DNA of 56,300 bases from a virus: positions 1 through 56,300 of the IMG/VR virus record IMGVR_UViG_3300029442_000006. One strand, written 5' to 3'. The position numbers and the translations under genes were made by a program. The notes under the pieces are model-generated. The model did no database searches. It was not told the origin of the DNA and worked only from the letters and a program-made list of their open reading frames with translations. Below are positions 4,844 to 40,571 of this stretch, one piece after another. Every line of letters starts with the position of its first letter. Position 1 is the first letter of the stretch.

Positions 4844-5506
4844 TTAAAAACCCATCGAAACATTTCCAGTGGTTTGATTTGAGTCAGTGACCGTGGACAA
4901 CCCCTTCAACTGACTGCCGATTGCTAGGGCTTGATTTAATGCTTGGTTTTCCTGCGACTGCGCTTGATTCACAGCACCGCTCTGGAGGCCAAGCTGCTGC
5001 GAGTAGTCCGCCTGCTTGTTCGCCTCTTGCTGGGCATAATTCTGTTCGGCAATGTTTTGAGCTTGGGTGTAGGCCGTGTTTTCCAAACCAGCCACTTGAC
5101 CGGTCACATCCGCCGCACTCTGCCGCGCGGCCTGTCCTGCCGCCGCTTGTGCGCCGCTTGAGTCAAGCATTCCCGCTGATTGTGCGCCGCCTTGAATCTG
5201 CGCTAAAGCATTCGCAAACGATTGCTGCCCGGCCAACTCAGTCGCGCCCACCGCATTGGATAAGGCTGGGTTGTTCACTGGATCAAACGCTCCGGGAGTC
5301 GGTGCGGCTGAAAAAATACCTTGCAAAGTGTTATTCACCAAATCCGTCGAAGCAACTTTTTCCGCCCCTCCCGAAGGATCGTACTGGTTTACTGCCTCGA
5401 CGCCCTTCGGCGCGAAACTCTTAAAGAAGGGAACCGACCACTCCGGCATATTGTTCACATTGGTCGTTCCACTCGAACTTGACATTCCACCAGATACGCA
5501 ACTCAT
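4844..5506 (-). CDS. Ala/Gln-rich virion-cluster protein, unknown
   Basis: 220 residues. The C-terminal half is an Ala/Gln/Asn-rich helix likely to form a coiled coil (AQNIAEQNYAQQEANKQADY). The N-terminus begins MSCVSGGMSSSSG and is Ser/Gly-rich. Composition resembles internal core or ejection proteins of short-tailed phages, but no family is recognised. The start overlaps the end of the sulfotransferase gene by 4 nt (ATGA). Its final residues are duplicated in the next small ORF. Confidence 0.75.
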   Translation of the reverse strand: MSCVSGGMSSSSGTTNVNNMPEWSVPFFKSFAPKGVEAVNQYDPSGGAEKVASTDLVNNTLQGIFSAAPTPGAFDPVNNPALSNAVGATELAGQQSFANALAQIQGGAQSAGMLDSSGAQAAAGQAARQSAADVTGQVAGLENTAYTQAQNIAEQNYAQQEANKQADYSQQLGLQSGAVNQAQSQENQALNQALAIGSQLKGLSTVTDSNQTTGNVSMGF

Positions 5507-6489
5507 TGTTGACCTACCTTGTCGTTTCGTTGTTTGAGAGCCTCCGCAATCGCATACAACTGTGTGCTGAACTGCTGTTGTTTTGCCTGTCCGCCGAGTA
5601 GGTAAGCCACGGCGAGCGGCACTTCGGTATAAAGTCGGTACGCCAATTCATGTCGCGGGCGACCGTTGCTGTACTCCCACGCCTGAATCACATTCGCAAT
5701 GGTTGGAGCGAGCAAAACTTTCGCATTCTGGTAGAACGTGTTCGTCGGCCATTTCAACAGAATGTTGGAAAGGCACGAGTTCATAATCGCCACATCCACC
5801 TTGTCGCCATCCAAAACGTGATCCCACGTCGAAGAAAGATTGAACAAATCAATCAACCACTGCTCCACTTCGGCGTTCCCCGCGCAAAGCTCATGGATGA
5901 CTGCGTAAAAATCCAAATGAATTTGAGACGGCTGGTAAGCCTCTCGAACCGCCCGACGGATGTTTGTATTGTATTCCGGCTCGGTCTTCTCAAAAATCAT
6001 ATTCACCCGGAAGGTTTTCAACAGATGATACCGCTTCCGATTAAACGGAAGGTTGAGGTGGTTGTAAATCCGCGCCATTACTGACTCATCATCCAACTGA
6101 TCAAAGTTCACGGAATACCCGCGAGTTCCAATCAAATCACTGCAAAGCTCTAATTTGTCCGAATAGAACCGGATTTGATGCTCGGTAAGCTTTCGGTCGG
6201 GGAAAGCGTGGTTGTAACTGGTGAGGCATTCATCGGCAGGGCGGTGAACAAACAACCACGGCGCATCGGGGAATAACCCGTTAATTTGCTCCCACGAAGT
6301 GAGCAGGGCGGCTCCACAATCGCCCACCGACTTAAATTCGCGGTCGGAGAGCTTGTTTTGATACTGCTCCAACCCGTCCACCGTAGCCACCGCTTCATGG
6401 TAACAGATCGCCTCCCCATCGCTGAAAAGATTAGAAAGCCATGTCGAGCGTGTCCGACAAAGCCCAGCTATGAAAAATTGTTTAGTCAT
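5503..6489 (-). CDS. sulfotransferase-like protein
   Basis: 328 residues from ATG 6489. The longer frame to 6558 would place the start inside the previous gene and upstream of the promoter-like element. The N-terminus FFIAGLCRTRSTWLSNLF matches the 5'-phosphosulfate-binding loop of PAPS-dependent sulfotransferases, starting within 5 residues of the chosen Met. Further on, FPDAPWLFVHRPADECLTSY matches the 3'-phosphate-binding segment (hR.P.d...Sy). It should transfer sulfate from PAPS to a hydroxyl or amine; the acceptor is unknown. It is first in a unit with virion proteins and the giant gene, preceded at 12 nt by a sigma-54-type element. A P-loop kinase with a similar fold is the main alternative. 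Confidence 0.75.
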   Translation of the reverse strand: MTKQFFIAGLCRTRSTWLSNLFSDGEAICYHEAVATVDGLEQYQNKLSDREFKSVGDCGAALLTSWEQINGLFPDAPWLFVHRPADECLTSYNHAFPDRKLTEHQIRFYSDKLELCSDLIGTRGYSVNFDQLDDESVMARIYNHLNLPFNRKRYHLLKTFRVNMIFEKTEPEYNTNIRRAVREAYQPSQIHLDFYAVIHELCAGNAEVEQWLIDLFNLSSTWDHVLDGDKVDVAIMNSCLSNILLKWPTNTFYQNAKVLLAPTIANVIQAWEYSNGRPRHELAYRLYTEVPLAVAYLLGGQAKQQQFSTQLYAIAEALKQRNDKVGQQ

Positions 6490-6501
6490 GCCACTTACTA
6501 C

Positions 6502-6517
6502 TGCAACTTTCGGGCCG
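6502..6517 (-). promoter_or_regulatory. sigma-54-type promoter element, copy A
   Basis: On the minus strand it reads CGGCCCGAAAGTTGCA, followed by GTAGT. GG and GC are spaced as in the -24/-12 consensus (TGGCACG-N4-TTGCA), with one substitution (C for T) at the first base. Start ATG 6489 of the sulfotransferase is 12 nt downstream of the core. The predicted +1 would be about 2 nt before the ATG, giving a nearly leaderless mRNA. Confidence 0.7.
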
Positions 6518-6524
6518 AGTTTTG

Positions 6525-6791
6525 TTAAAAGCTGTTTATGACGTTCCATTTGATCCAAAGGTTGTTCTGCACGCAGAGGTAAAGCGTGCCAGATTGATAA
6601 GCCACATCTCCCGCCGTTCCTGCGCCTGTGCTGGTCGCCGGTGGCGTAGGAACTAGGCGCAAGGTGGTGGCTTCAATTCGGTTTAAGTCCGTCCAAATGT
6701 TGTTATGTTCATCCCGCAAATCCTTCAATAACCGTTGCGGAGGAAGGACATCCTTAAACGGTGCTTGCTGGGGGGTGCGTAACCCGGTCAT
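6525..6791 (-). CDS. small tail-associated protein, unknown
   Basis: 88 residues from ATG 6791, which overlaps the nozzle gene stop (TAATG). The upstream in-frame extension to 6878 lies inside the nozzle gene and is unlikely. The C-terminal half, GDVAYQSGTLYLCVQNNLWIKW, resembles the short beta-hairpin segments found in phage tail or trimerisation modules (GDVAYNSGTLYVCTSAN type). The N-terminal half is helical (LLKDLRDEHNNIWTDLNRIE). It closes the capsid/nozzle unit. A small tail-tip or fibre-joining protein is likely (inference). Confidence 0.7.
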   Translation of the reverse strand: MTGLRTPQQAPFKDVLPPQRLLKDLRDEHNNIWTDLNRIEATTLRLVPTPPATSTGAGTAGDVAYQSGTLYLCVQNNLWIKWNVINSF

Positions 6792-8356
6792 TAGTGTTGC
6801 CCTCGCGCTCGAAAACTCGGCGCATACGAACCTAACGAGAAAAATCCACCCACCTTTTTGAAAGTAATCTGAAACCACCGACCGCTAACCGTAAAATCAA
6901 TCCGCGCCGGCCCGTAGCATTGCCCCACTAATTGCGGAACCGCATTCTGATCATTGATTTCATCAAAAGCGGTCACGTACACCTGCAATGGTGCTTCCGT
7001 GTTCGGAATCGGTAGCAGGTCAACCCGCAAGCCGTCCATGATTTTATAAACACTCTCATCACCGAAATCTATCAACCCGCTTGTCAGGACTGCCGTATTC
7101 GTGCCGGTAACACCCGCCGGTTCGTACAGGTAGAGAAAGCCTCCCGAATCTCCGACATAGCTCTTCTGGTCAAGCTGCGTCTCCGGTTTGACCCACGGAG
7201 TATCGCCGCCATCTACCCATGTCCCTGACTGAGAATCCCAAGTCTTATTTAGGGAAGGGGGGAGCGACATCTCTGCGGCAGTAAAAGGAAAGTCACGAGT
7301 ATAAAACGCATCGTTGTCGAGGTCGTACACCAATGCCTGCGCGGGGCTGCCATCCAGATTCCAGAACCCCGTCCAAATAATTTCTTTCTGATTCGGATTC
7401 CAAAAACCCCAGCACTCGCTCAAACGTGTTTGGTCAATCTGTTGCAACCACCAATTCCACACCCGATCCCCCATTGCGTGTGGTGTTCCGTCAAAGGTGT
7501 AAATGTTGTCATTGCCAATAAAATAAAGCCGGTCGCCTTGCTTATCGCTCACCGTGATTACGCTGGCTCCGCTCGGCGTTCCGGTTCGGCTGCTCACCTG
7601 CTGCCGTTGATAAACTAATTGCCCGCTCACGTAGGTAACGGCATGAATCGAGGCCTGTTTGAAAATAATCAGGTAATCACCCAGCTTGCGTAACGCCATC
7701 ACGGATGAGTTCTCACCCGGCACCAAGAAACTCCGCGCTTCATGCGTCAAATCTACTGTATTCCAATACTGAGTATTTCCCAACGCACTCCCCATGACCG
7801 ATTGCGGCAAGTCCGAGCCACCGCCTAACCCACCGACAAGCAGATGGTTTTGGTAGTCCGTAATGTATCTCCCCACTGGAACATTGCCGGCGGTTAGAAT
7901 TGACGGATCAAGCCCCGGAGGTTTTACCGCCGTCAACGGCACAAGGTTCCCGTCTGCCCCTTGAATCCACTGGATCGGGTCTGTGCCATTCGTAAAGTAA
8001 GCGTTATTCAGAAGTGACGCCATCTCCCAGCGATAGATTCTAGTCCCATGAAAATCCGCTGTGTTCAGCCTTGTCAGAGACTCCCCATCGTTTTTTACCT
8101 TGTAAAGCGACTGATTGGTTCCCACAATCATCATCGTGGAATCAGAGAAAAACGGAGCCATTTTGATAAAGGTCAATGCCCCGTCAATAGTTTGCACCAA
8201 TGCGGTGACGCCACCCACCATCTCAATCCGCCCCTTGAACGAGCGCACATTGCTCGCCACCGCCCAACTTCCTTGCGGCAACTCCCATTCCGGTACGGTC
8301 GTGACAATCCCCTTAATCGGGCTACCCACACGCAGGGATGTAAACCGGGTTGCCAT
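6791..8356 (-). CDS. tail nozzle / stabilisation-like protein
   Basis: 521 residues. Repeated beta-rich blades (WAVASNVRSFKGRIEMVGG, MMIVGTNQSLYKV, DYLIIFKQASIHAV, DRLYFIGNDNIYTFDG) match the beta-propeller of short-tailed phage nozzle proteins such as P22 gp10-like families. The start motif 'GIV...PEWELPQGSWAVASNVR' is typical of that group. It would close the portal-adaptor channel at the tail tip. It follows the secreted fibre-like gene by 4 nt. Short-tail morphology is inferred largely from this gene and the absence of tape-measure and tail-tube genes. Confidence 0.75.
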   Translation of the reverse strand: MATRFTSLRVGSPIKGIVTTVPEWELPQGSWAVASNVRSFKGRIEMVGGVTALVQTIDGALTFIKMAPFFSDSTMMIVGTNQSLYKVKNDGESLTRLNTADFHGTRIYRWEMASLLNNAYFTNGTDPIQWIQGADGNLVPLTAVKPPGLDPSILTAGNVPVGRYITDYQNHLLVGGLGGGSDLPQSVMGSALGNTQYWNTVDLTHEARSFLVPGENSSVMALRKLGDYLIIFKQASIHAVTYVSGQLVYQRQQVSSRTGTPSGASVITVSDKQGDRLYFIGNDNIYTFDGTPHAMGDRVWNWWLQQIDQTRLSECWGFWNPNQKEIIWTGFWNLDGSPAQALVYDLDNDAFYTRDFPFTAAEMSLPPSLNKTWDSQSGTWVDGGDTPWVKPETQLDQKSYVGDSGGFLYLYEPAGVTGTNTAVLTSGLIDFGDESVYKIMDGLRVDLLPIPNTEAPLQVYVTAFDEINDQNAVPQLVGQCYGPARIDFTVSGRWFQITFKKVGGFFSLGSYAPSFRARGQH

Positions 8357-10648: not shown

Positions 10649-11815
10649 TTAGGCTTCTGTTCCGAGCGAGGAGGCTCCATGCAGTAACATGCAGGACTTC
10701 TCTTGGATTCGGAGGCCGAAGTCCGTATAGATGTCCCCGATGGTTCCGTCGGTCGTGAGTCCGTTTTCTGGAGTGAGTTTCCGCTCCAGCATCCATTGAC
10801 GGGTCTTGGTCTGCTGATCGCGGGTCGTCACGATTTCCAGTGCCGCCGGGTCAATAGCCGCCATGACATCGGAGCAGTTGTTTGAGAGGTGATCCACAAT
10901 CATCAGTTTCCACGTCTTCCCGCACATCCGGAAGGAGGTGATGTTGATGTTGAGAATGTTCTCATACACCGGCGTGATGTTGCCCTTATTGAACACGGCG
11001 CGATCAAACAACTCGCTACCGAGCCGGCTGACAAAGAGCCAAACGGTGCTGGAACGCATAAACCGGGTTCCCTGCGTCATCGCCGTCCGGAGCTTGTTGA
11101 TCGTGAACTGATTACTGCCGAACCCGCTGACGTTCGTGGTAATCATGTTCATGACGCCGCCGGTCTTGTACAGGGTGTTCCCTTGCGGGCCGGTGGTCTG
11201 CGCTTTGGCGTTGAACCACAAACCACGGTCAATCCCGCGCTTGTGTTCGTACATCGCCTGTTCGCGGTTGTGATAACCGCGTGCGCCGCCGTAGAACTTC
11301 ACGGTCTCAACCCATCGGCTTTGACCGTAGGTGTCCCAAGCGTTTTCGGCAAAGTTCGTGACTTGTGCCGGAACGCGCGAAACAACCGACGGACGCTGCG
11401 CCAATTCCTCGACCGCCGCCGAACCGAGATTCGGAATCGAACCCACGGTAAAGCCGGTGTTGTTGTCGAGGGTGACTTGACCGGTCGCGTAATTGACCGC
11501 CGTGACTAGGGCCACGGTCTGCCAATCCACGCGCAAGGTCAAACCGGGGCGAATGTACTTCACGTCATCCGCCGAAACGGTGATGTTCACACCGTCATTG
11601 GCTTGCGTCACCACGGTCACATAACCGGGGTCTTGGTCTTGAATGTTGATGCGGAACTCACGGTCGTCAACCGTCACGCGGTTGAGAGCCATAAGCAGCG
11701 TCAAGATTGTGGTTTCTTCGGGGCGGTACTTGAAAATCTCATTCGAGATGTCCAGTGGCCGCATCCCTGCTGGGGTTGTCGTCAGATATGCCTGACTGTT
11801 TACTGGTGCTGGCAT
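10649..11815 (-). CDS. major capsid protein (SU10/DUF5309-like)
   Basis: 388 residues. The N-terminal arm RPEETTILTLLMALNRV resembles the conserved start of SU10-type HK97-fold capsid proteins. The central region, REQAMYEHKRGIDRGLWFNA followed by a Gly-rich turn and GGVMNMITT, matches the helix and loop that precede the peripheral domain in that family. A good ribosome-binding site (GAGGAAAATACA) precedes ATG 11815. Neighbouring scaffold-like and decoration-size genes support the call. It assembles the icosahedral shell. Confidence 0.85.
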   Translation of the reverse strand: MPAPVNSQAYLTTTPAGMRPLDISNEIFKYRPEETTILTLLMALNRVTVDDREFRINIQDQDPGYVTVVTQANDGVNITVSADDVKYIRPGLTLRVDWQTVALVTAVNYATGQVTLDNNTGFTVGSIPNLGSAAVEELAQRPSVVSRVPAQVTNFAENAWDTYGQSRWVETVKFYGGARGYHNREQAMYEHKRGIDRGLWFNAKAQTTGPQGNTLYKTGGVMNMITTNVSGFGSNQFTINKLRTAMTQGTRFMRSSTVWLFVSRLGSELFDRAVFNKGNITPVYENILNINITSFRMCGKTWKLMIVDHLSNNCSDVMAAIDPAALEIVTTRDQQTKTRQWMLERKLTPENGLTTDGTIGDIYTDFGLRIQEKSCMLLHGASSLGTEA

Positions 11816-13193: not shown

Positions 13194-13377
13194 TTTCGAT
13201 TTCTTTCTTCTCCGCCATTCTTTCTTGGTTTTGAAACAGACTCGCGAGTAAGGGCGAGCTACCTGCTTCGTGATTGCTCACTGCCAAATTGGTAGCGGGA
13301 GATGAAGTTGAATCATCAGTCTCCTGCGTATGAAGCAGGCGTGTTACCGGGTTACACCATCCCGCAGTCTTAAATTT
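13194..13377. other. intergenic gap
   Basis: 184 bases between the coiled-coil gene and the scaffold gene. I see no sigma-54-type element, no strong hairpin with a U-tract, and no convincing ORF. GGAGAAG lies ~15 nt before the scaffold ATG. Confidence 0.5.
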
Positions 13378-14245: not shown

Positions 14246-14261
14246 TGTGCTATTCCACTAC

Positions 14262-14277
14262 TGCAACTTCCGGGCCA
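14262..14277 (-). promoter_or_regulatory. sigma-54-type promoter element, copy B
   Basis: Minus strand TGGCCCGGAAGTTGCA, followed by GTAGT. It matches the consensus TGGCMYG-N4-TTGCA with exact -24/-12 spacing. It sits between the zincin gene stop (14287) and ATG 14245, and would drive the scaffold, capsid and nozzle genes. Confidence 0.8.
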
Positions 14278-14709: not shown

Positions 14710-15953
14710 TAAAATTCAATCCCCAATTCTGCCGCCTTCTCAAAGGCGTCTTCGGCCTGCTTCACCGCCGCTTCTTGAATGTCCACATCATGTCCAGAAA
14801 TCATTTTAGACACTTCCTTGATCGTCGCTTCGCACTCTTTCAGGCTCTCACCCGTTGCGATAACGTCACCGATCTCAATGCTTTCGTGAGGCTGGGGCGC
14901 AATCCACAATTCGTCATTCACCTTGACTGCGTTAGAAAACGCCACATATGGCCATGCTTCCTTCTCGACATCCACCTTGACCCAATGTTTCGCAGCGTAA
15001 GGACAATGTATCCGCGCCAGCACAGCATATTTTGCCGTCGGTTCAGGAACCACAAGCCGACCTTCCGCGCCGGCGTAGATGATTTCGGATAGATTCGACC
15101 AGAGCTTGCCGTAACACGGGCCGGGCGGGATCGGCATCCGCACTGTCATGTCAATCAAGTAGCCCTTGCGGTCATCCTCAGCCACGCGAAGCTCGTTCGA
15201 ATAGAACGTCGCGCCGCCTAACTTCTTAAACGCCGGAGCCACCCCCGCGTTGCAATCTCGAACGGTTTCCCACAAATCAGGATAATCAAACACCCGCCCA
15301 ACGTAGCCGCAGTCTTTAACCTCAATCCCAGCTAACACCCGCGACGGGTACTCCCCATTGATTACCCACGTGTCGCAACCAATCTCAACACCATCAATCT
15401 TTTCTTCCGCCAAAAACTTAAACTCTTCACGGAACGGCCCTAAACCATTCAGCAAATCAATCTTCAACGTCTCAAAATTGGCCGCCTTGAATGTTTCGCG
15501 GAGTCCGCGATAGCGAGACAGCTTGATAAAAGTCTCCGGATGCTTGGCGCAATACCTTTCCAGTGCTTCCATGCCAGTGATCTGTTCGGTTCCCGGTGTC
15601 GGCATTCCTCTATGACTTTGCAGGTTGCGAATCAACCAGCGGTCGAGTTCTAATTTCTCCGAATCTCCAGCCCCCCACACTCGCCGCCCTAGCCGCCGCT
15701 GTTCATTTGCCCAACTTCCAAAATAATTGTCCGGACAAATAATCAGTTCAGTGTCGTCTAGGTAGTCGTCAAGGTCTTCCACCCGCTCAATCTCGTTAAA
15801 GCCTGAGCCAATGGCCGCACCCTTAATGTCCGGGAAAGCCGTCGCCCACGGCGTCCAGTAGCGCACCTTGCCAAAATCTTGCGCCAGCCGTAACGCCAGC
15901 CAGAGGTTTAACCCGTGATCAACCAGAAGGCAGGATTTTTTGGAAAAATCCAT
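14709..15953 (-). CDS. ATP-grasp ligase-like protein (PurD-like architecture)
   Basis: 414 residues from ATG 15953, overlapping the portal stop (TGATG). GTG 15956 is the alternative. The N-terminal ~115 residues form a Rossmann-like domain (CLLVDHGLNLWLALRLAQDF; ELIICPDNYFG). The central region has ATP-grasp hallmarks: ETFIKLSRYRGLRETF (phosphate-binding Lys strand) and FLAEEKIDGVEIGCDTWVING (hinge and metal-binding strand, like the EE..pG.E..vd of PurD). The end IATGESLKECEATI matches the C-terminal lobe of the same family. ATP-grasp enzymes join a carboxylate to an amine via acyl phosphate. Substrate is unknown. The purine pathway is unlikely since no other pur gene is present. Confidence 0.65.
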   Translation of the reverse strand: MDFSKKSCLLVDHGLNLWLALRLAQDFGKVRYWTPWATAFPDIKGAAIGSGFNEIERVEDLDDYLDDTELIICPDNYFGSWANEQRRLGRRVWGAGDSEKLELDRWLIRNLQSHRGMPTPGTEQITGMEALERYCAKHPETFIKLSRYRGLRETFKAANFETLKIDLLNGLGPFREEFKFLAEEKIDGVEIGCDTWVINGEYPSRVLAGIEVKDCGYVGRVFDYPDLWETVRDCNAGVAPAFKKLGGATFYSNELRVAEDDRKGYLIDMTVRMPIPPGPCYGKLWSNLSEIIYAGAEGRLVVPEPTAKYAVLARIHCPYAAKHWVKVDVEKEAWPYVAFSNAVKVNDELWIAPQPHESIEIGDVIATGESLKECEATIKEVSKMISGHDVDIQEAAVKQAEDAFEKAAELGIEF

Positions 15954-18079
15954 CACCGCTCCGGTACCCCGCCGGGACTGCGTGGAATCTTGGTCGCCAT
16001 CCCGCCAAGCCCTTTCAAGCTTTCCAGCGCGTGTTTCTTGTCGTTCTCGCTCGACTTGTGCGCGTTCTGTAAGCCGATTTGTTCCGGCTTGGAAGCTCCA
16101 CCAACTCGCGACGGGATTAAGCCACCAGCCTTTTCAAGCTGCCGTTGTGCATCGGGCGGTAAATCTTTGTACTTCATGGAAGCAACCACCGCCGGCGGTG
16201 GGTGCGGTTGCGAATCCATCATCGCCTTTTTCTTCGCAAATTCCTCGTCTGTGAGTAAGAACCGCTCGGCGGAGTCCAAGCCCAAGCCTTCCACAATCTC
16301 GCGCCAGAGTTCTTGCTGCTTAATCCTCGGCGCAACCTCCGGCATCGCCTGAGCCATCTGCCCAGCCTGCGCCAGTAATGACGCGCGAGTCTTAGTGTCC
16401 ACCGTCCGGTTGACACCCAACACCTCCACATGCCACCGCCCTTGAATGTCTTCCGGAGTAACCTCCACCCAATCCTTGAAGCCACGAGCCATTAAAACCT
16501 TGTTTTGTCCGATAATCTTGAGCTTTTGGGGGACAGTCATCACCTGCTGGATGTCAGCGCAAATCATGTTCAGCCCGTCTTCGATCCCCTGCTCGGCCAT
16601 CAAAGCGGTAAAACTCTTCGCCTGATTCGAGGCCGAGAGAAGCTGTTGAATCCCGCCTAACGTCTCCGTTCCTTTGCCTAATCCAGAGTCACCAGCAATT
16701 CCCCGCGAATAGTCCGGCGTCGCTCCCACCTTCGCAATGCTCAATCGCGCCCGTTCCATTGATTGCCAAACATCAGGCGGAACATTCGGTGCTTTCCAGT
16801 CTAGTATGCCTGCCACGCGCCCCACACGAATGCGCTTGCCCGGCTCACGAGTCAAATCCGCCAAATCCTCCACACCAGCATCATGCTCAACCAAAGTCAT
16901 CGGATTACGCTGCTGCTCCATCATATCGGCGGATAGGTTCGTCAGGACGTTGAGCTTGCCCTGCAAATCTTCCAATTGCTCCGGAATCCCTCGCGCCTGC
17001 CAAACCTGTGGTGAACGCGGCTTAAACTTAATCTCCGAATACGGTTTCAGCCCGTGGTAATGTGGGTTCGCCATCTCTTTGAGTAGAAACTTGCGATCCC
17101 CAATAATCATAATCTTATCGCAGCCGTAACCCAGTGGGCCGGATTCGCTATAAATCAACAATTCGGCATACTTCACCGCATTCTGCCCGTACACCTCATT
17201 TCCACCACCGCGTACATCATAACCAACCGCCGCCAACCGCTCGTAAAGGTCAAAATGTCTTTCCGACCACTCGCCTAAGGCGTAACCTTCCGTCCGATCC
17301 AGCGCGAAAAAGCCTTCCATCTCTTCGGTGTGTTGGTAGCCGGCAATCTTTCCCAACGCCTGAACTTCCCGCAGCGGAAGGATTAACCGCTCGATGAAGT
17401 ACGGCATCTCCTGAATGGTCGCACCGGTCGCCGCCGGGTAGCAATCAAAGCGCGAAATCACCCGCGACTTCGGCCATGCTTCAAAACTTTGAATCGTCTC
17501 GCGCTTCAACCCAATCTTGATACCGTATTCGGAACCGGCAATGATTGGAACATTGCGAGTCGTCCGTACCATCTTCGGTTGGACAATGTGCCGCTCTACG
17601 CCATTGCCAAAAAAGGTCGCCTCTTGCGCCTGATAGAACTTCGCCATCTTGTACTTGACGTGTTCGTTCAAGACGTAACCCATCACCAACTGCATCATCT
17701 CGCGCTCGACTTGGCCTTGATCATCCTTCGCCTTGACGTTATGCACCACGTCTTTAGCGAAAATCGGAGCCATAATTGTCTCAATGTTTTCCCATGCGAC
17801 ATTGGAAGTCTCTGGCTCAAAGAACCTCGACCAAAACGGCCAATCCCCCGGCAGAATGCTATTCACCTGCATCCAGTGGCCGAGCGCAGCCTCCTTAAAC
17901 GACCGATCAAACCGCTCCGAGACTGCCATCCGCTCCAAAACGTATTTCACCCGCGCATCTTCTTGAACCCGATTATTGCGCGGAGCCGTTAAAACAGTCG
18001 CGCTCAACGTGGAAAATGAAGCCTCCGGACCGTCGCCGGGGGCTGTAACAGGGGCAGCATTGAGTGTGGTGGTAGGCAT
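15953..18079 (-). CDS. portal protein
   Basis: 708 residues, long as in P22/N4-like portals. N-terminal region PWFW-like segment GDWPFWSRFFEPETSNVAWE, the ENIETIMAPIFAKD helix typical of short-tailed phage portals, then beta wing and stem region (GKLNVLTNLSADMMEQQ; TPDYSRGIAGDSGLG). The C-terminal ~100 residues are Gln/Pro/Lys-rich and may be a barrel or disordered tail. It forms the dodecameric DNA channel and binds the terminase. It lies 8 nt after the 76-residue gene. Confidence 0.8.
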   Translation of the reverse strand: MPTTTLNAAPVTAPGDGPEASFSTLSATVLTAPRNNRVQEDARVKYVLERMAVSERFDRSFKEAALGHWMQVNSILPGDWPFWSRFFEPETSNVAWENIETIMAPIFAKDVVHNVKAKDDQGQVEREMMQLVMGYVLNEHVKYKMAKFYQAQEATFFGNGVERHIVQPKMVRTTRNVPIIAGSEYGIKIGLKRETIQSFEAWPKSRVISRFDCYPAATGATIQEMPYFIERLILPLREVQALGKIAGYQHTEEMEGFFALDRTEGYALGEWSERHFDLYERLAAVGYDVRGGGNEVYGQNAVKYAELLIYSESGPLGYGCDKIMIIGDRKFLLKEMANPHYHGLKPYSEIKFKPRSPQVWQARGIPEQLEDLQGKLNVLTNLSADMMEQQRNPMTLVEHDAGVEDLADLTREPGKRIRVGRVAGILDWKAPNVPPDVWQSMERARLSIAKVGATPDYSRGIAGDSGLGKGTETLGGIQQLLSASNQAKSFTALMAEQGIEDGLNMICADIQQVMTVPQKLKIIGQNKVLMARGFKDWVEVTPEDIQGRWHVEVLGVNRTVDTKTRASLLAQAGQMAQAMPEVAPRIKQQELWREIVEGLGLDSAERFLLTDEEFAKKKAMMDSQPHPPPAVVASMKYKDLPPDAQRQLEKAGGLIPSRVGGASKPEQIGLQNAHKSSENDKKHALESLKGLGGMATKIPRSPGGVPER

Positions 18080-18476: not shown

Positions 18477-18491
18477 CTATGTATCAACTAC

Positions 18492-18507
18492 TGCAACTTC
18501 CGGGCCA
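18492..18507 (-). promoter_or_regulatory. sigma-54-type promoter element, copy C
   Basis: Minus strand TGGCCCGGAAGTTGCA then GTAGT, identical in core to copy B (14262-14277) and sharing two more upstream bases. It lies just downstream of the terminase terminator and 15 nt before ATG 18476. The predicted leader is about 5 nt. Confidence 0.8.
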
Positions 18508-18515
18508 AGCGCGAC

Positions 18516-18608
18516 AAGGGTTTTCCTTGCTGGGATATATCCTAAAAACAAGCTAGCTCTTTTGAGCTAGCTTCCTACGGGATAACTTAGGCGGAAGAGG
18601 AAACCCTT
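18516..18608. other. nested inverted repeats around the terminase terminator
   Basis: Outer arms AAGGGTTTTCC (18516-18526) and GGAAACCCTT (18599-18608) pair with one bulge. Inside are GGATATATCC (18533-18542, a perfect palindrome), CCTAA/TTAGG (18541-18545/18587-18591) and the 10-bp terminator stem. A folded RNA of about 93 nt could form in the 3' UTR of terminase mRNA. Confidence 0.45.
18550..18573 (-). terminator. intrinsic terminator after the terminase genes
   Basis: AAGCTAGCTC and GAGCTAGCTT form a perfect 10-bp stem with a 4-base loop. On the minus strand the stem is followed by TGTTTTTAGG, a short U-run. It lies 41 nt beyond the large-terminase stop and before the portal promoter-like element. 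Confidence 0.75.
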
Positions 18609-18614
18609 ACGCGC

Positions 18615-20366
18615 CTATATTGATTTACCGAGATTCCACCGGCGTTGCGGAGTGTAAGACTGTTGCGGACGTTTTGCGCTGCTTCCCCACGAAGTCGGAT
18701 TCAGGTTCGGATCGCCCACAATCGGCTTTGCCGCTTGCGCCATAGCGTTGCGATTGGCTTGGCTGCTGGGCATTACTGTGCCGCCAACAACTCTCGCCCC
18801 GACTCCGCCACTGGCAGCACGCTTATCTAGTCCAATCACATTCCAAGTCATGTATGACCAGCAATCTACAACGTGGTCAAACTCGCCATCTTTGACGGGC
18901 AAGCCATCCTCGCCACGATGATAACCCCCGCGTAACGCCGCCAATAACTTCGGGCAACCCGTTGGATCAACCTCTAGGCTCCCAGACGATATTATGGATT
19001 GAGAAACATCCAGACGAGTATCTACCGCCGCCACGCTCGTTTTAACGATAATACCATACGCCGCGCAAACCTGAATGGAACTTTCACCGGTCTTGTCAGA
19101 ACGCTGGTGGCCGGCGGGATCACCGTAGTATTCGACGATGGCTCGCGGAAAGACACGCGCCACATACGGCAGTAGGTAATCTTCGAGAAAATGCCCGATT
19201 GTGACGTTGTTGGCGATCGTTTCCTTTAAAACGTGCATTCGCAGTTGTACCGGCTTGCCGGATTCACCCGCCAGAGGCTCAATCTGGCTGAAGGTTGCCG
19301 CTGTCTCAGTAAAACCGAAATCCAAACCGACAAAGACTTTCAACGACGGATCGTAAAGCTGTGGAATCGCTGAAATCTTCTCCGTGTCGCAAAAAACCGG
19401 CAAACCCGCCGGTACGGCAAAATCTACTTCCATTTCTCGGTTCCACTTTCTCGTGCTGTAAGAAGGCCGCACCGCATCGAACCAAGCTCGACCCTCCGCA
19501 CCGGCCGGGTCTTTCTCCGTATCTGCACTGTAATGGATTCGCAAATGCCTAAACGCATTGTAATCCCACGCCTGCAAGCCCTTTGCGAGGATTTGCATTG
19601 GTGGATTTTCCTGACCCACTGGAGCCGCCGCCGAATCATCTAAGGCTCCATACCCAAGCCGCCAAAAGAAATTACGCCCATTGGCGCTCGAAACAATGTT
19701 AAACCGTCCGCCGGCACCGACGCAGGGTAGGGCGGCAGCATAGATTTCATCCTGCCCAGACTGAAACGCCGCCTCATCCCAATTGATTCCAGAGTAAGTA
19801 AAGCTTCGCAACTGGTTCGCTGCATCCGCCGCGCGACCACGTTCCGCCGCTATTGCCTCAATTCGACTGGTCGGAATCGCGCTCTCCGCATCATGAAACA
19901 CCCGCAACTCGCCCTCCACAAATTCCACAACCGGCTTTTCCCATTCCGAGGGTATCTCTTGGTAAATGTACTGCAACCGGCTTTGCAGGTGATCACTAGC
20001 GTCCGCAAAAGTCTTGCATATCCACGCCACCCTCTGACCGCGATTCTTCAAAACCCAATGCAACCATAACGCCGCCAACAGCCATGTGATCAAGATTTGC
20101 CGGCTTTTCTCAATCCTCAGCCTCCGATTGCGCTCCCACTCTCGTACTGTCATCTGCAGGTAAGCCTTGTCAGGGAAACGCCGGCGCGGATCAAGACCAG
20201 TTGTTTTCGCCAGCTCATCGAATGTGTAGCAGCAATCGCGCACGAACTCCCACGGATCATCGGGTATCGGCTTCCGAATCGCCGGCTTAATCTTTGTCGC
20301 CGCCAAAAAAGTATCAGCGATGACTTTGTTGACCGTAAGTTTCGATGTCTTGAGCGAGAGCGGCAT
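18615..20366 (-). CDS. terL: terminase large subunit
   Basis: 583 residues. ATPase domain: the Walker A-like RIEKSRQILITW (lacks the GK of the classical loop, as in many TerL), Walker B in INWDEAAF, and a following coupling segment FNIVSSANGRN. Nuclease domain: VGLDFGFTETAA, with a further acidic position in DGEFDHVVDCWSYM. It packages DNA into the prohead with the portal. GGAGGAACATC precedes ATG 20366. It overlaps the small subunit gene by 53 nt. Confidence 0.9.
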   Translation of the reverse strand: MPLSLKTSKLTVNKVIADTFLAATKIKPAIRKPIPDDPWEFVRDCCYTFDELAKTTGLDPRRRFPDKAYLQMTVREWERNRRLRIEKSRQILITWLLAALWLHWVLKNRGQRVAWICKTFADASDHLQSRLQYIYQEIPSEWEKPVVEFVEGELRVFHDAESAIPTSRIEAIAAERGRAADAANQLRSFTYSGINWDEAAFQSGQDEIYAAALPCVGAGGRFNIVSSANGRNFFWRLGYGALDDSAAAPVGQENPPMQILAKGLQAWDYNAFRHLRIHYSADTEKDPAGAEGRAWFDAVRPSYSTRKWNREMEVDFAVPAGLPVFCDTEKISAIPQLYDPSLKVFVGLDFGFTETAATFSQIEPLAGESGKPVQLRMHVLKETIANNVTIGHFLEDYLLPYVARVFPRAIVEYYGDPAGHQRSDKTGESSIQVCAAYGIIVKTSVAAVDTRLDVSQSIISSGSLEVDPTGCPKLLAALRGGYHRGEDGLPVKDGEFDHVVDCWSYMTWNVIGLDKRAASGGVGARVVGGTVMPSSQANRNAMAQAAKPIVGDPNLNPTSWGSSAKRPQQSYTPQRRWNLGKSI

Positions 20367-20787
20367 GATGTTCCTCCGGCACGTACTTCATTAAGATTGG
20401 CGCAATCTGCTGAACCACTAAGATTACAACTTGATTGGCATCTTCCCCCTCTCTCAAATACTTGCCCAACTTCAAACATAGTTCCGTAGCTCGAATTTGG
20501 ACGGCATTATCCGGGACACTGAGCGCATCCTTGCCGGCGACAGTCTGACAGTCTAGCAATTCAGAAAGCTTTCGCCCAAGCCTAATCTCCGAGATTTTAC
20601 CCTTCTGCAATAGCCTCGCATTATCAGGGTTCCGCGCAATCGTCCTAAAGGTTCGACAGCCTTGCTTCTCAGCCACGGACTTGGAAGCCCCTGCCATCAA
20701 CAAAGCCTTACGCTTGGAACCAGTCTTAGCGTACCCAATCGCAGCCTTATGGTGCATAATTTCAACGGCCTGTGAGACGCCTTGCAT
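20314..20787 (-). CDS. terS: terminase small subunit-like protein
   Basis: 157 residues. The N-terminal half has a helix-turn-helix-like segment (KRKALLMAGASKSVAEKQGC) with GYAKTGS preceding it, as in DNA-binding TerS domains. The rest is helical (VQIRATELCLKLGKYLREGE) for oligomerisation. It overlaps the large subunit and is the first gene of that unit. No sigma-54-type element precedes it. Confidence 0.7.
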   Translation of the reverse strand: MQGVSQAVEIMHHKAAIGYAKTGSKRKALLMAGASKSVAEKQGCRTFRTIARNPDNARLLQKGKISEIRLGRKLSELLDCQTVAGKDALSVPDNAVQIRATELCLKLGKYLREGEDANQVVILVVQQIAPILMKYVPEEHHAALAQDIETYGQQSHR

Positions 20788-35591: not shown

Positions 35592-38323
35592 TTGAGTATC
35601 ATCCCCCGGCAGGAAACTGAATTGGAAAGTCCAAAGCCGTCAAAAGCGTAGATTCCAAAAATATAAGCCGTTGGGATATTGGTTTGTGTCCCGCACCATC
35701 TCCATTCCGGCGCACGACCGTTGATGGCCACACTCTGATAATAGGAGAGTGTCGCATTGGTCGGGTTGTGCTCGATTGCAAACCACTCAACATCTGTCGG
35801 TTGGAATCGTGTGCCGCCAAAACTCCGACGAGTACTCCCTAGCGCATCGTTAAAAGTGTTAGTGTCCGCCGCCGGGCTGGATGTATAAACCGTGTTGCCA
35901 ATACCGCGTAGAATCTCAGTGCCACTAGTCCCGGAATAAACCAGTGCGTGAACATTGCTAACACCTGTTTGCGAGCTTGCGACACCCCACGTGCGGTAGT
36001 CAGCCCCCAAACTTTCTCTCACCGCGTTTGCATTTCCCCATTGGCGGGCTATCAAGCATTCAAACCGGTGCCACGTGTTCGTTGAGGGAGACAGCAGCCC
36101 GACAATGCGTGATTGTTGAACCAGCTCGTTCGGTGACTGGAAGTCCAACCAATTCGCCCGGTTGGTTATTACCCAACTGCCGACGTTAATCACGGCTAGG
36201 CTACTCCCGTTTGTGGTCAACTGAGTCGGCCAGTATTCGACACTGCCGGTCATTTTGGTAACATCCGGTTCACCCACTGCTGCCCAGCCAAAAGCGTTTG
36301 ACATCACGACTGCGCCTGTGCGTGTGTCGTTGGAGAAGTTGACCGGAGCGACATAGGTTGCCACCGCATTCGTACCGCCTAACAAGCTTACCGTCACGCC
36401 GGTCGAGGAGTTGCTGACTGTGGCGTAGAGCAGCCCCGCGCTGGTGTTCGTGGAGCCCGTGGTGACGGCGACTAAATTATATTGTGCATTCGGGTCATTC
36501 GTCCCAATCCCCCACACTGAGCCGCTGCCGCTGACGATGCCTGCTAACTCACCGGTATTGGTCAATGTGATGCCGGAAATCTTCCCACTAATTGCCGACG
36601 ATAACGTGTTGGACAACGACACTTCCCGGTTCGTCGCCGCGCTAAGTAAGTCGTAACCGAGAGAGGTCACGGCATTACTCACCGCCGCCGCCGCGCCAAC
36701 TACGTCAAACAGATTGCTACCAAGACTGCCAATGTCACGATTCCACGCTGCCGCAACTACGCCGCTAAATGTTCCGCTGCCTGTCCATATCACAGCGCTG
36801 CCGGCATTGGTCGCGTAGAGGCTGTTTGTCGCAAACGCTGAGTTGGTGGCGAATGTGCTGCTGGCAGAATATCCGCTATTCGTGGCGAATCCCGCATTCG
36901 TGGCATAGCCGGCGTTCGTCGCGTACAGGCTGCTGGCCGAGTAAAGCGATTGGGTAGCGTACAGGCTGGAAGCTGAGAACGTCGCGCTGCCGCTGTTTGT
37001 GGCATAAAGCGCACTGCTAGCAAAAGTCGCTGTCTTACTGTTCGTCGCGTAGTTTCCAGCGGTCGAGAAATCCGCATTGGTCGCATGGCTTACGTTAGCC
37101 GCCGCGCCAATCGGGTCAAACGGCAACCCCGCAACATTCAAGTTCGTGACCGTGATCGGCGCAAACAACGTTCCAATCGCCTGCCCGTTCAACTGAATCG
37201 GCCCTCCGATTAGATTGAGTGCGCCAACCCCATTCGAGCAACTCGTAACTGTTAGAACCACCCCTGAGCAAACCAAGCTACCGCCGTTTTGGAATGCTAG
37301 CATTGTCAAGTTTGTGATATTGTTTCCACCGGCATTAACCGTGTTAGTGAGTACGTATGGGTTACTCCCTGTTACCGTAATGCTGCCGCCATTTTGAATC
37401 GCTTGACCATTGATGATGAATCCGCCATTCGTGACCGCTTGGCCTTGCAAGACCACGTTGCTGCCACCAACCGTGAGACTGCCGTTAAGTGTTAGGTTGC
37501 TACCCACGATGTTGCCGCCGGTATCAACGGTGAACGGCGAGTAGGAGTCGGAGCCGCCAACATAGAGGCCGGAGTCGCCGATTAAATAACCGCCTTCGAT
37601 ATTAAGTCCATAGGCTGTGAGGTTGCCGCCTTGGACCCAAAACCCTGTAGAAGCACCCCTTGCCCAGTCGGCGCTGTCGGCGGAGCTGGCGGTGCCGGCC
37701 CAGTTGGCGTAGCTGGCGTTGTTGGCGTTGTCAGCGTAGCCGGCATTAGAGGCGTAGCCGGCTGAGTCGGCGGTGCCGGCTGAGTCGGCGTAGTTGGCTT
37801 CGTTGGCGTAGCCGGCGGAGTTGGCGTAGCCGGCGTAGCCGGCGTTGTTGGCGTCGCCGGCGTTGTCGGCGTATGATGAGGACGTCGAGCTACCAGCATT
37901 TGCCACCGTCCCACTGGCCGAAAGTCCAGAAGCAAACGCAACATTGTTGCTAGTGATTAGCCCATTGACGTCGTTGGAGGAGATAATTGGAGTCGAGATT
38001 ATGAGAAAGTTATTACTGACCGTCCCGAGGTCCGTCTTGCTATTAACGATACCCAAGGTGGTATCGTTGGTGCTGGAGACAATCTGGTTGACTTGGTTAG
38101 AGGTTAGCGCATCGCCTGATGTAACGCCTCCGCCTGCGGTAGTTTGCGAAGTCCCGTCGCCAAAGATGATCCCTCCCTGAAAAAATCCCCAGCCATTCGG
38201 CACAAGACTCAAGGAGTGTGGTGCAGCCGGGTTACTGGAGAGCGAAAGGTTTTTCCCTTGATATTGAGCGTGGACTGAACACACGCAAAGAATTAGACCG
38301 AGCGTTGTAAGGATTCGTTTCAT
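35588..38323 (-). CDS. repetitive secreted tail fibre-like protein
   Basis: 911 residues from ATG 38323, coupled to the adaptor stop (ATGA). Signal peptide ILTTLGLILCVCSVHAQ. Two long Ala/Asn/Tyr/Ser tracts in 3- to 6-residue periods (e.g. NAGYAGYANSAGYANEANYA; ATNSGYSASSTFATNSAFAT) as in rod-like trimer fibres. Pro-poor beta regions between. The C-terminal ~250 residues (WPTQLTTNGSSLAVINVGSW; HRFECLIARQWG) resemble a lectin-like receptor-binding domain. A signal peptide on a cytoplasmically assembled fibre is unexpected. Confidence 0.75.
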   Translation of the reverse strand: MKRILTTLGLILCVCSVHAQYQGKNLSLSSNPAAPHSLSLVPNGWGFFQGGIIFGDGTSQTTAGGGVTSGDALTSNQVNQIVSSTNDTTLGIVNSKTDLGTVSNNFLIISTPIISSNDVNGLITSNNVAFASGLSASGTVANAGSSTSSSYADNAGDANNAGYAGYANSAGYANEANYADSAGTADSAGYASNAGYADNANNASYANWAGTASSADSADWARGASTGFWVQGGNLTAYGLNIEGGYLIGDSGLYVGGSDSYSPFTVDTGGNIVGSNLTLNGSLTVGGSNVVLQGQAVTNGGFIINGQAIQNGGSITVTGSNPYVLTNTVNAGGNNITNLTMLAFQNGGSLVCSGVVLTVTSCSNGVGALNLIGGPIQLNGQAIGTLFAPITVTNLNVAGLPFDPIGAAANVSHATNADFSTAGNYATNSKTATFASSALYATNSGSATFSASSLYATQSLYSASSLYATNAGYATNAGFATNSGYSASSTFATNSAFATNSLYATNAGSAVIWTGSGTFSGVVAAAWNRDIGSLGSNLFDVVGAAAAVSNAVTSLGYDLLSAATNREVSLSNTLSSAISGKISGITLTNTGELAGIVSGSGSVWGIGTNDPNAQYNLVAVTTGSTNTSAGLLYATVSNSSTGVTVSLLGGTNAVATYVAPVNFSNDTRTGAVVMSNAFGWAAVGEPDVTKMTGSVEYWPTQLTTNGSSLAVINVGSWVITNRANWLDFQSPNELVQQSRIVGLLSPSTNTWHRFECLIARQWGNANAVRESLGADYRTWGVASSQTGVSNVHALVYSGTSGTEILRGIGNTVYTSSPAADTNTFNDALGSTRRSFGGTRFQPTDVEWFAIEHNPTNATLSYYQSVAINGRAPEWRWCGTQTNIPTAYIFGIYAFDGFGLSNSVSCRGMILK
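36780..37080 (-). repeat. coding repeat tract in fibre, block 1
   Basis: Short reiterated units on the plus strand (gtcgcgtagaggctgtttgt and close variants) giving ATNSxx/ASSxYA repeats. Period is a multiple of 3. Confidence 0.7.
37640..37880 (-). repeat. coding repeat tract in fibre, block 2
   Basis: Reiterated ggcgtagccggcgttgttgg-like units giving ANSAGYA/ADNAGYA repeats. Length can be expected to vary by slippage. Confidence 0.7.
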
Positions 38324-39405
38324 GATAGGAAAGCCACCGCCCAATTTCCGTTGAAAGCCGATCCACCCCCCGGAGCCACCGGAACGCTAATCCTCACGGT
38401 GTCACTTCCGGGAAGCTGCGTGAATACCGGCACGCCGGGATCCGGACCTGTGGATGGAAGGACGCCAATAGACAGCGAACCGGTCGCTGTCATTCCGACT
38501 ACTGGAATATCTACATAAAGATTCGCCCCGCTAATGCTGAAGATGCCATGTTGTCCCACGGGAGCCGGCGGTGTCGCCGGTGTTCCACTACCGCCACCAC
38601 ACGCAATCATGGAACCCGTTCTCGGCATTGGAGGAACGTAAATTCGATCATTTGTCCCTTGTCGAATTGACCGGTCTTGCAACCACGCTGAACGGAGCAA
38701 TTCTTCCCCTTGTTGTCCGAACAATGCCGCGCGGTCTTCCTCAAATGAGTTCAACGAGACTGCGCTAGCCACCAGATAACACAATTCATTGAAGAGTTTA
38801 TCACTGAAAAAGTCGGATTTTGGAGTCGAGTAGAATGTATCATCCGGCAGGGGGAGAAAAGCATCATACTCCAATTTTAGCATTACCTGAGCATCCAGCG
38901 GCGGCGCGGTTAAAACCATCTGCCCCTCTAAATCCATCCAGCCGCTATGCTGTTGGTCGGTAAATTGAAACCATTCATTCCAACCACCCCACCAGTCGGA
39001 AAGCGAACGCTGCGGTCGCTGATTGCGTTCCATTTCTGTAACCGAGCGTAACGCTCGACCGCCTGTGATGCCATTCGGAGTGACCGGACGAACAAACCGC
39101 ATTTTCTTATAATCAGACGGGTAGGGGATTCCGTAATAAGTTGTGGGGTTTGCCGGGTCTAATGGTGGATACCAGACGTATTGATGCGCTTGCGCCAATC
39201 GCCAGTTACCGTCACTAATCTTTTCCAACTTACCCGAACGACTAGAGTACCACGGCATTTGTAGTTTGCGGTGGACTACCTGAATGGAAGGGCGGATCAT
39301 CGGCGCACCGGGTAAAGCGGTTGCTGCCGTTGTCGAGCCGGCAAGGTTCGGACGGTTGAGCATCCGAACTACATAATTTTCTACATCTGCATAAGTTGTT
39401 GCCAT
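38320..39405 (-). CDS. head-tail adaptor-like protein (SU10-adaptor type) with C-terminal extension
   Basis: 361 residues. The first ~260 residues match the adaptor pattern: TYADVENYVVRMLNRPNLAG at the start, then YPSDYKKMRFVRPV and LTAPPLDAQVMLKLEYDAFL (final beta strands), DDTFYSTPKSDFF and helix FNELCYLVASAVSLNSFEED. The last ~90 residues are a Gly/Pro-rich beta domain (GIFSISGANLYVDIPVVGM) that may bind fibre or nozzle. It links portal and tail. ATG 39405 lies 21 nt after a sigma-54-type element, without Shine-Dalgarno. Confidence 0.7.
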   Translation of the reverse strand: MATTYADVENYVVRMLNRPNLAGSTTAATALPGAPMIRPSIQVVHRKLQMPWYSSRSGKLEKISDGNWRLAQAHQYVWYPPLDPANPTTYYGIPYPSDYKKMRFVRPVTPNGITGGRALRSVTEMERNQRPQRSLSDWWGGWNEWFQFTDQQHSGWMDLEGQMVLTAPPLDAQVMLKLEYDAFLPLPDDTFYSTPKSDFFSDKLFNELCYLVASAVSLNSFEEDRAALFGQQGEELLRSAWLQDRSIRQGTNDRIYVPPMPRTGSMIACGGGSGTPATPPAPVGQHGIFSISGANLYVDIPVVGMTATGSLSIGVLPSTGPDPGVPVFTQLPGSDTVRISVPVAPGGGSAFNGNWAVAFLS

Positions 39406-39426
39406 GAGTTTCTGGCAACTGACTAC

Positions 39427-39442
39427 TGCAACTTTCGGGCCA
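39427..39442 (-). promoter_or_regulatory. sigma-54-type promoter element, copy D
   Basis: Minus strand TGGCCCGAAAGTTGCA then GTAGT. Lies between the activator stop (39452) and ATG 39405. Predicted leader about 11 nt. It would drive adaptor, fibre, lysis-like and phosphoesterase genes. Confidence 0.8.
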
Positions 39443-39451
39443 ACAGGTAGC

Positions 39452-40519
39452 TTAGGAAAGCTCGGTGAAGTGGTCGGGAGTTAAAACATTAACCCCTGCA
39501 CCCGCAGTCAAGGCAGCCTGTCGCACCACGTCAAACAGTTGGCGGGCATTCCCCGGCCAGTGCTGGCGAGATAAAAGCTGCTTTGCGTCCTCCGAAAACA
39601 GCCATTGACCGCCAAACTCGCCTGCCGCCGTTTGCAACGCATGTTCTGCGAGCAGGACAATATCCCGCTCACCACGTTCTCGAAGTGGGGGGATGAAGAT
39701 TGCCACCTGTTTCAGACGGTAATACACATCCGAGCGGAATCGCCCTTGCTTGATCGCCGCATTCAAATCTTGGTTGGAGGTCGAAATAATTCGTAAATTG
39801 ACAGCCTTTTCAGTATTGGAGCCAACGCGGGTGATTCGCCGGTGTTGCAGGAAATCGAGCAGCTTGGCCTGAGTTTCAATCGGTATTTCACTTACTTCAT
39901 CGAGTAAGAGGGTTCCGCCTTCCGCTGCCTCCACTCGCCCCATCCGATCTGTATTGGCTCCCGTGAATGCGCCGCGAACATGCCCGTTGAGTTCGCTATC
40001 CCAAAGGGTTCCGGTAATCGCCGGGCAGCAGATTGTTTTGAAAGGTTTCGCATGACGTTGGCTAGCCTTATGAATCAGTTCTGCCAAAAAAGACTTGCCG
40101 GTACCTGTTTCACCGGTAATTAAAAGCGACGCATCCCGATTTGATAAAAGTTCCGCCGTCGAGCGCATTGCCTTGATGATAGGGGACTCGCCCACAAATG
40201 AATCCAACCAATGTTTTCGCCCTTGTAATGCGACTGGATGGATCAAGGTCTCAACAATCTTGCGGGAAAGCTCGGATGGGCAAAAGGTTTTCTCGTAACG
40301 AATCACACTTAATGGAAGCCTTGCCCGCCTTGCGTACCCATCCTGCATGATTAACACTGCGGATGGAGATTCTTTCATTTTACTTTCAGCGTCAAACCAT
40401 CGCTGGGCGATATGGATCGAGATTGTTTTTGAAGCGTTCCGAATTGTTTCGATAACCAGCGACCGGCGATTAAAGTCCGGTTCATACACCACTACGGTTT
40501 GCGGCGCAGACGTAATCAT
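39452..40519 (-). CDS. sigma-54-dependent transcription activator (AAA+), without a DNA-binding domain
   Basis: 355 residues. Residues 1-115: receiver-like but degenerate ([20 protein letters not shown]; no clear phospho-Asp after AVLIMQDG). Residues ~120-325: AAA+ domain with [11 protein letters not shown] (Walker A), [15 protein letters not shown] (GAFTGA loop that contacts sigma-54), [11 protein letters not shown] (Walker B), [10 protein letters not shown] (sensor I), [10 protein letters not shown] (Arg fingers) and HWPGNARQL (sensor II). Only ~25 residues follow, with no Fis-type helix-turn-helix. It would remodel closed RpoN complexes without binding an upstream activator site, or bind via a partner. 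Preceded by a sigma-70-like promoter and a Shine-Dalgarno hairpin. Confidence 0.9.
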
Positions 40520-40526
40520 TATACAG

Positions 40527-40540
40527 CCTCCTTTCGGAGG
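40527..40540 (-). promoter_or_regulatory. hairpin covering the Shine-Dalgarno of the activator
   Basis: The mRNA reads CCTCC-GAAA-GGAGG: a 5-bp stem with a GNRA-type loop. The 3' arm GGAGG is the ribosome-binding site, 7 nt before ATG 40519. Folding would hide it, so translation may be regulated or depend on unfolding. Confidence 0.65.
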
Positions 40541-40542
40541 AT

Positions 40543-40571
40543 TATGTATTACTCCGCTCTGTAAAAGTCAA
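40543..40571 (-). promoter_or_regulatory. sigma-70-type promoter of the activator gene
   Basis: Minus strand TTGACT, 17-base spacer, TACATA. It begins 7 nt after the giant-gene stop codon. Host sigma-70 could thus make the activator before the sigma-54 units turn on. Confidence 0.6.

Follow-up and report, generated by a model that had tools for sequence, protein, structure and literature searches.

A phage-encoded sigma-54 activator and sigma-54-like promoters as a putative late-gene switch through host RpoN in unrelated phage groups

The DNA analysed here, referred to as the window, is the whole 56,300-nucleotide stretch of the IMG/VR virus record IMGVR_UViG_3300029442_000006. It carries genes matching a terminase large subunit, a portal protein and head proteins, a gene for a sigma-54 activator, and four promoter-like elements (Table 1). 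A giant DarB-like gene (phrog_10089, E=0) occupies positions 40578-56300 and 1-2652 on the minus strand, and its frame of more than 6,100 codons crosses both contig ends. Because this gene continues in frame across the ends and a repeated peptide segment stands on both sides, the record probably represents a circular genome opened at the repeat. If it is circular, the unit that starts at the 6497 element would extend across the giant gene and on into the activator gene, and positive feedback would be possible. A tRNA-Met (CAT) gene was also found within the head-protein unit (13290-13366, minus strand).

Table 1. Genes, motifs and promoter-like elements of the window, with the evidence for each. 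Transcription starts and leaders are predictions.
Feature	Position	Strand	Evidence or remark
First ORF after promoter 1, sulfotransferase-like	5503..6489	-	PF13469, 3.9e-6
Sigma-54-like promoter 1	6497..6517	-	C at -26; precedes sulfotransferase-like and giant DarB-like genes; predicted start 6491, leader 2 nt
Virion structural protein match	6791..8356	-	phrog_3287, 2.2e-46
Major head protein match	10649..11815	-	phrog_1328, 6.9e-7
First ORF after promoter 2, 63 aa	14054..14245	-	
Sigma-54-like promoter 2	14257..14277	-	heads head-protein gene unit; predicted start 14251, leader 6 nt
Portal protein	15953..18079	-	SU10_portal (PF23899), 8.5e-15
First ORF after promoter 3, 53 aa	18315..18476	-	
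Sigma-54-like promoter 3	18487..18507	-	heads portal gene unit; predicted start 18481, leader 5 nt
Hairpin with T run, terminator-like, separating the terminase gene from promoter 3	18544..18573	-	by eye
Terminase large subunit	18615..20366	-	phrog_2, 4.8e-23
First ORF after promoter 4, 361 aa, without family match	38320..39405	-	
Sigma-54-like promoter 4	39422..39442	-	9 nt past the stop codon of the activator gene and ahead of ORF 38320-39405; start predicted at 39416, leader 11 nt
Sigma-54 activator, AAA+ without C-terminal HTH, 355 aa	39452..40519	-	PF00158, 6.8e-58; AAA_lid_14; model and fold
GAFTGA loop, residues 183-188	39956..39973	-	sequence, alignment
Walker A GETGTGKS, residues 136-143	40091..40114	-	sequence, alignment

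The element YGGCCCGRAAGTTGCAGTAGT was found at four exact places, all on the minus strand, and no fifth copy could be detected with up to three mismatches in the whole 56,300-base window, nor any match in 100 dinucleotide shuffles. These results confirm a sequence-only reading of the same DNA, which had claimed four minus-strand copies and no other; the positions that it gave (6502, 14262, 18492 and 39427) are the low ends of the 16-mer from -26 to -11 within the 21-base element. Its further claim, that three of the copies hold all -24/-12 consensus positions with exact spacing, was also borne out: all four elements have GG and GC at a distance of ten bases, and the full core TGGC-N7-TTGCA is present in three of the four, with T at -26 in three copies and C in the 6497 copy. 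The pattern TGGCMYR-N4-TTGCW had three matches in the window, compared with 0.19 expected from 150 first-order Markov sequences (maximum 2). The conserved block spans -26 to -6 and extends past the sigma-54 consensus to a spacer RAAG and to GTAGT after -11, an extra conservation that could reflect either copying in the recent past or some additional constraint. Identity among the sites is 90-100% within the 21-mers and only 20-40% in the flanking 30 bases on each side. Since identity ends at the edges of the 21-mer, the four sites are copies of a delimited element and do not stem from a long stretch duplicated recently. The exact element was absent from every other viral contig searched. A looser form of it matched one contig, L224, and this match was judged to be due to chance, as no common gene set was found.

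Every element sits between two minus-strand ORFs, in gaps of 35, 41, 138 and 46 bp, and, with unit limits drawn from the ORFs, at the head of a transcription unit, as had been proposed from the letters. The elements end 7-16 nt before an ATG in all four cases (ATGs at 6489, 14245, 18476 and 39405). None of the four starts behind them has a Shine-Dalgarno match, compared with 15 of 29 other starts checked, and the activator gene itself has a strong one (AAGGAGG, spacing 7). With predicted leaders of 2-11 nt and no Shine-Dalgarno match, the window messages would therefore be near-leaderless. The terminase operon had been described as having no such element, and indeed no copy with up to three mismatches precedes the terminase genes or their unit in the window. 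In the four 200-base stretches before the sites, no 8-mer was shared by at least three of them, and one 7-mer was, compared with 1.2 expected.

By sequence and modelled fold, the window activator (P0001) is a complete sigma-54 (NtrC-type) AAA+ activator, which is predicted to open the RpoN holoenzyme. Its Sigma54_activat score is 195.5 bits, compared with a curated cut-off of 20.2. Alignment with other activators showed that the Walker A, GAFTGA, Walker B and sensor II motifs, all of which had been recognised beforehand, are intact, together with the arginine fingers and the GNxR segment. In the structural model, pLDDT is mostly 87-98 over residues 111-340, which form the AAA+ module, and poor for residues 1-102. 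The best fold matches are the AAA+ modules of FleQ, FlrC, LuxO and NtrC-type proteins, with FleQ aligned over 246 residues (Z 28.7, 1.7 A), and the best match among solved sequences is 3dzd of the NtrC family (E=1.2e-54). Sequence, family match and model agree on the absence of a C-terminal HTH, the chain stopping just past the AAA lid, and an enhancer-independent mode is therefore expected.

Bacterial enhancer-binding proteins of the NtrC type, such as FleQ, NtrC1, NtrC4, LuxO and PspF, contain an AAA+ module of this kind, including GAFTGA, Walker A/B and the arginine positions. In contrast to these proteins, the window activator is phage-borne, has no C-terminal HTH, shows no confident domain in its N-terminal 102 residues and likely targets phage genes. 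A closer architecture is seen in Chlamydia CtcC and Helicobacter FlgR, both of which consist of an N-terminal segment and an AAA+ module without HTH. The Helicobacter protein found in L013, presumably FlgR, ends like P0001 in the alignment. CtcC is reported to be a bacterial sigma-54 activator without a DNA-binding domain (PMC7482065). As such a bacterial activator is on record and no enhancer-like word recurs beyond chance in the stretches before the four sites, the window activator may act without an enhancer.

No relative of the window phage itself was found. Scans of viral contigs with single sequences, a method that reaches close relatives only, gave no related locus for the activator, one for the portal and none for TerL. 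The one locus, L005, was rejected as kin of the window phage, as the match spans 46 residues and the record has no PF00158 match. Among phage records, the window portal had one weak match (23%, Roseobacter phage CRP-4), TerL had four (25-32%), and the head protein had none. Activator matches in phage records (66 and 64 records) were set aside because, judging from six fetched among the matches listed, they seem for the most part to be bacterial sequences entered under phage names (NtrC, AtoC, etc.).

A profile scan of viral contigs for the activator, in which the best 80 of 119 confirmed loci were examined, revealed two kinds of protein in these 80: longer ones, mostly with a C-terminal extension like that of bacterial regulators, and short ones of about 235-304 aa that stop after the AAA+ module. 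The 45 loci with short activators, as well as L047, L067 and L085 (in which the activator frame is cut or broken), carry at least one gene of a common set that includes a DNA polymerase, a helicase, a nuclease and others, compared with none of the remaining 32 of these best 80 loci. The genes shared from this set thus define the short ones as one phage lineage. Twelve of 13 fetched records (12 whole, one part) share terminase-like, portal-like and capsid-like genes, with functions read from sequence, in addition to the activator; the one exception, G024, encodes an activator with an HTH and lacks any site with a PWM score of at least 14. A second scan was anchored on the lineage capsid protein, and 79 loci were kept, some on contigs seen previously. 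The activator profile matched all 41 lineage records tested, which are the longer, not-yet-fetched contigs among the 79 capsid loci, with a few near-copies included.

This lineage is not related to the window phage by its main structural and packaging genes. In single-sequence comparisons, hhalign probabilities on a scale of 0-100 were 0.11 for TerL, 0.78 for the portal and 0.07 for the head protein, and a tblastn search with window proteins on the 80 activator loci matched the activator alone. Therefore, the lineage supports the general scheme and not these four particular sites. As to a possible independent capture of the window activator, P0001 grouped among full-length proteins in the first trees; when it was constrained to the short clade, the AU p value was 0.757 with the truncated row relabelled and the long-branch row taken out, and 0.0475 otherwise, so that after the correction a grouping with the short clade is not rejected.

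Sigma-54-like promoters in the lineage were sought in several ways. The PWM was written after the published consensus and the spacer test used consensus letters, whereas the gapped-word test used neither. TGGCMYRN4TTGCW had 58 matches in 31 of 40 records that mainly belong to the lineage (reversed control, 0) and seven matches in seven of the other 40 (reversed control, 2), in a split chosen post hoc, after PWM scoring of the 80 loci, such that the lineage half includes two full-length loci and the other half includes ten short or truncated lineage fragments, which give three of its seven matches. With the spacer of 4, the consensus occurred 31 times in the 12 lineage genomes (24 intergenic and 7 inside genes), compared with 16 times for ten wrong spacers together (1 intergenic); the non-coding share of these genomes is 9-18% by simple longest-ORF gene calls. 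A site with a PWM score of at least 13.2 lies 97-235 nt upstream of the capsid gene in all 12 genomes, and one of at least 14 lies within 700 nt past the activator gene in nine of them. Among the 79 capsid loci, 69 have a site scoring at least 13 no more than 450 nt before the capsid gene, compared with 39 of 1,439 random windows from the same loci. The motif-free search of 43 dereplicated 300-nt capsid leaders returned GGCA-N7-TGCT and TGGC-N8-TGCT as top words (39/43 each; background 15/819 and 17/819, respectively), and both fit the GG-N10-GC frame of sigma-54 promoters. Unlike the window elements, those of the lineage keep the sigma-54 core only and have variable spacers; moreover, the capsid-gene sites lie 97-258 nt upstream, which implies long leaders in place of the 2-11 nt predicted for the window. 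These differences weigh against the explanation proposed below, as do the missing Shine-Dalgarno matches in the window and the seven lineage matches inside genes.

The pairing has exceptions. No site was found at eight of the 79 capsid loci (L161, L163, L164, L165, L167, L171, L186 and L203), and two more score below 12; the four of these ten site-poor loci that belong to the 41 records tested for the activator (L164, L165, L167 and L189) all carry it. MT121960.1 (L006), a phage from human faeces with a DNA polymerase and RecA, encodes an HTH-less activator at 19773-20687, and the PWM scan found no good sigma-54 site at the places tested. The co-occurrence of activator and sites that had been suggested as a check on the sequence-only reading was strongly borne out in an unrelated lineage, and failed at the places tested in these four activator-bearing loci and in MT121960.

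Two additional features of the capsid leaders were observed. A second conserved word, AAGGGCAT, occurs in the last 300 nt before the capsid gene in 31 of the 43 dereplicated leaders (loci L133-L211), compared with 2 of 819 in the background. A variant element, TGGCATATCGTTAGCA, in which the GG/GC spacing is kept, lies about 170 nt before the capsid gene in L194-L202, L204 and L211.

Sigma-54 provides an initiation route that is silent without an ATPase. In the explanation proposed here, the phage would make its own sigma-54 activator, an AAA+ ATPase without a DNA-binding domain that works from solution. Host RpoN-RNA polymerase would wait, closed and silent, at the four phage -24/-12 promoters, while the activator, presumably made earlier in infection, would assemble in solution and accumulate. 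Its GAFTGA loops would then remodel the closed complexes, and transcription would open at four units: those that encode the portal and the head proteins, the one with the sulfotransferase-like/DarB-like region, and the one formed by neighbours of the activator gene. It is highly probable that the phage activator switches on the four phage units via host RpoN in this manner, with late timing, rpoN dependence, enhancer independence and near-leaderless mRNAs as predicted features. The in silico evidence strongly supports that a phage-encoded protein activates host RpoN for the late genes, and the earlier proposal of a phage activator acting on host RpoN gains support from the completeness of the activator and from the predicted pairing in an unrelated lineage. 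As judged from genome sequences, the scheme of activator and promoters extends past the window phage into that lineage. On a broader scale, it appears fairly likely that tailed phages of two or more unrelated groups, including a widespread lineage without cultivated members, run their late genes through host sigma-54 by means of a stripped-down, enhancer-free AAA+ activator, a system that would be ATP-gated and confined to hosts with rpoN. A Sigma54_DBD match, which would point to an RpoN of the phage's own, was found in none of 18 records including the window, in a search whose controls gave a match in 4 of 14 cases.

Other explanations should also be considered. The phage sigma-54 promoters might obey host activators that respond to nutrient or stress signals, and the phage protein might mainly target sigma-54 genes of the host. 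Several sigma-54 activators exist in many bacteria, and this possibility would agree with the lack of a DNA-binding domain to direct the window protein to phage DNA and with MT121960, which has the activator without the sites. It is nevertheless unlikely, considering that the activator accompanies the lineage in all 41 records, with capsid-gene sites in most, and that a site scoring at least 14 closely follows the activator gene in 9 of the 12 genomes, as does promoter 4 in the window.

It is very unlikely that the 21-base element serves another factor, such as an unrecognised phage polymerase or sigma factor, with a chance likeness to -24/-12 promoters and an unrelated activator. The conserved block fits both the -26 to -6 stretch and the consensus of sigma-54 promoters, an intact sigma-54 activator adjoins one copy, and the pairing recurs in unrelated phages. 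On the other hand, conservation in the window extends over the entire 21-mer, as it does in promoters of single-subunit polymerases. No polymerase or sigma factor family was detected among the window proteins scanned, a set that covers part of the small ORFs, and the RNA polymerase family search gave a match in no control, so that its result is no evidence of absence. Finally, a role on RNA or as an operator, such as a translation enhancer or repressor site near the start codon, would suit an element that ends so close before four ATGs without a Shine-Dalgarno match, but it is hardly credible for one that occurs at unit heads only, once directly past a terminator-like hairpin, and whose lineage counterparts stand 97-258 nt from the capsid gene with the sigma-54 core alone.

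The activation of host RpoN by a phage protein would add to the known ways of phage takeover of transcription, which include sigma-70-type factors, own polymerases, small activators and antiterminators. T4 gp33/gp55, P2 Ogr, Mu C and lambda Q are phage proteins that steer host RNA polymerase to late genes, and the window activator would resemble them in redirecting the host enzyme to such genes; none of them is known to work through RpoN and an ATP-driven activator. CtcC and FlgR are two-component regulators of their hosts, whereas the short lineage activators (about 235-304 aa) contain little beyond the AAA+ module. Gp46 of Bdellovibrio phage phi1422 is annotated as a sigma-54-dependent regulator, and the study of this phage raises a possible co-option of such a regulator by the phage (PMC3391216). 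Unlike the window activator, this protein has 109 aa, seemingly the HTH segment alone (by eye), and is too short for an AAA+ module. Gp2 of Pectobacterium phage Q19, of a T7-like group, was reported as a putative sigma-54 factor with weak HHpred support (E=0.67) (PMC7693777); it is a predicted sigma factor and not an activator with promoters as in the window. The psp operon is reported to respond to filamentous phage infection via PspF (PMC11720261), which is a response of the host, unlike a phage-encoded activator. No description of a phage-encoded sigma-54 activator paired with phage sigma-54 promoters could be found in a search of the open-access literature and few subscription papers. The parts themselves are known; that a phage employs them as a late switch has, as far as searched, not been described.

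If the proposed activation through host RpoN is true, a phage with its own ATPase would gain tight control of its late genes at a cost of about 1 kb of DNA, representing a new mode of phage development that dispenses with a sigma factor, polymerase or antiterminator of the phage's own. The short proteins would offer minimal natural activators for studying enhancer-independent sigma-54 activation. Moreover, host range would be tied to rpoN-bearing bacteria, which may provide a host clue for the uncultivated lineage. Of 24 stretches in genome contigs that matched the pattern, two code for the lineage capsid protein and have a site ahead of its gene; the MAGs concerned are titled Deltaproteobacteria and Methanoregulaceae. 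These two contigs are weak leads; misbinning is likely for both, and therefore no host is claimed.

The portal (one query) and capsid (two queries) of the lineage had no match in 50,697 phage records. For one lineage member, 8 of 10 proteins had no PHROG match at 1e-3, and 6 of another, partly overlapping set of 10 reached the cut-off of no Pfam family. The contigs at L095-L129 (records G020, G029, G032, G015 and others) are mostly about 45-56 kb in length and form an uncultivated group that is worth describing.
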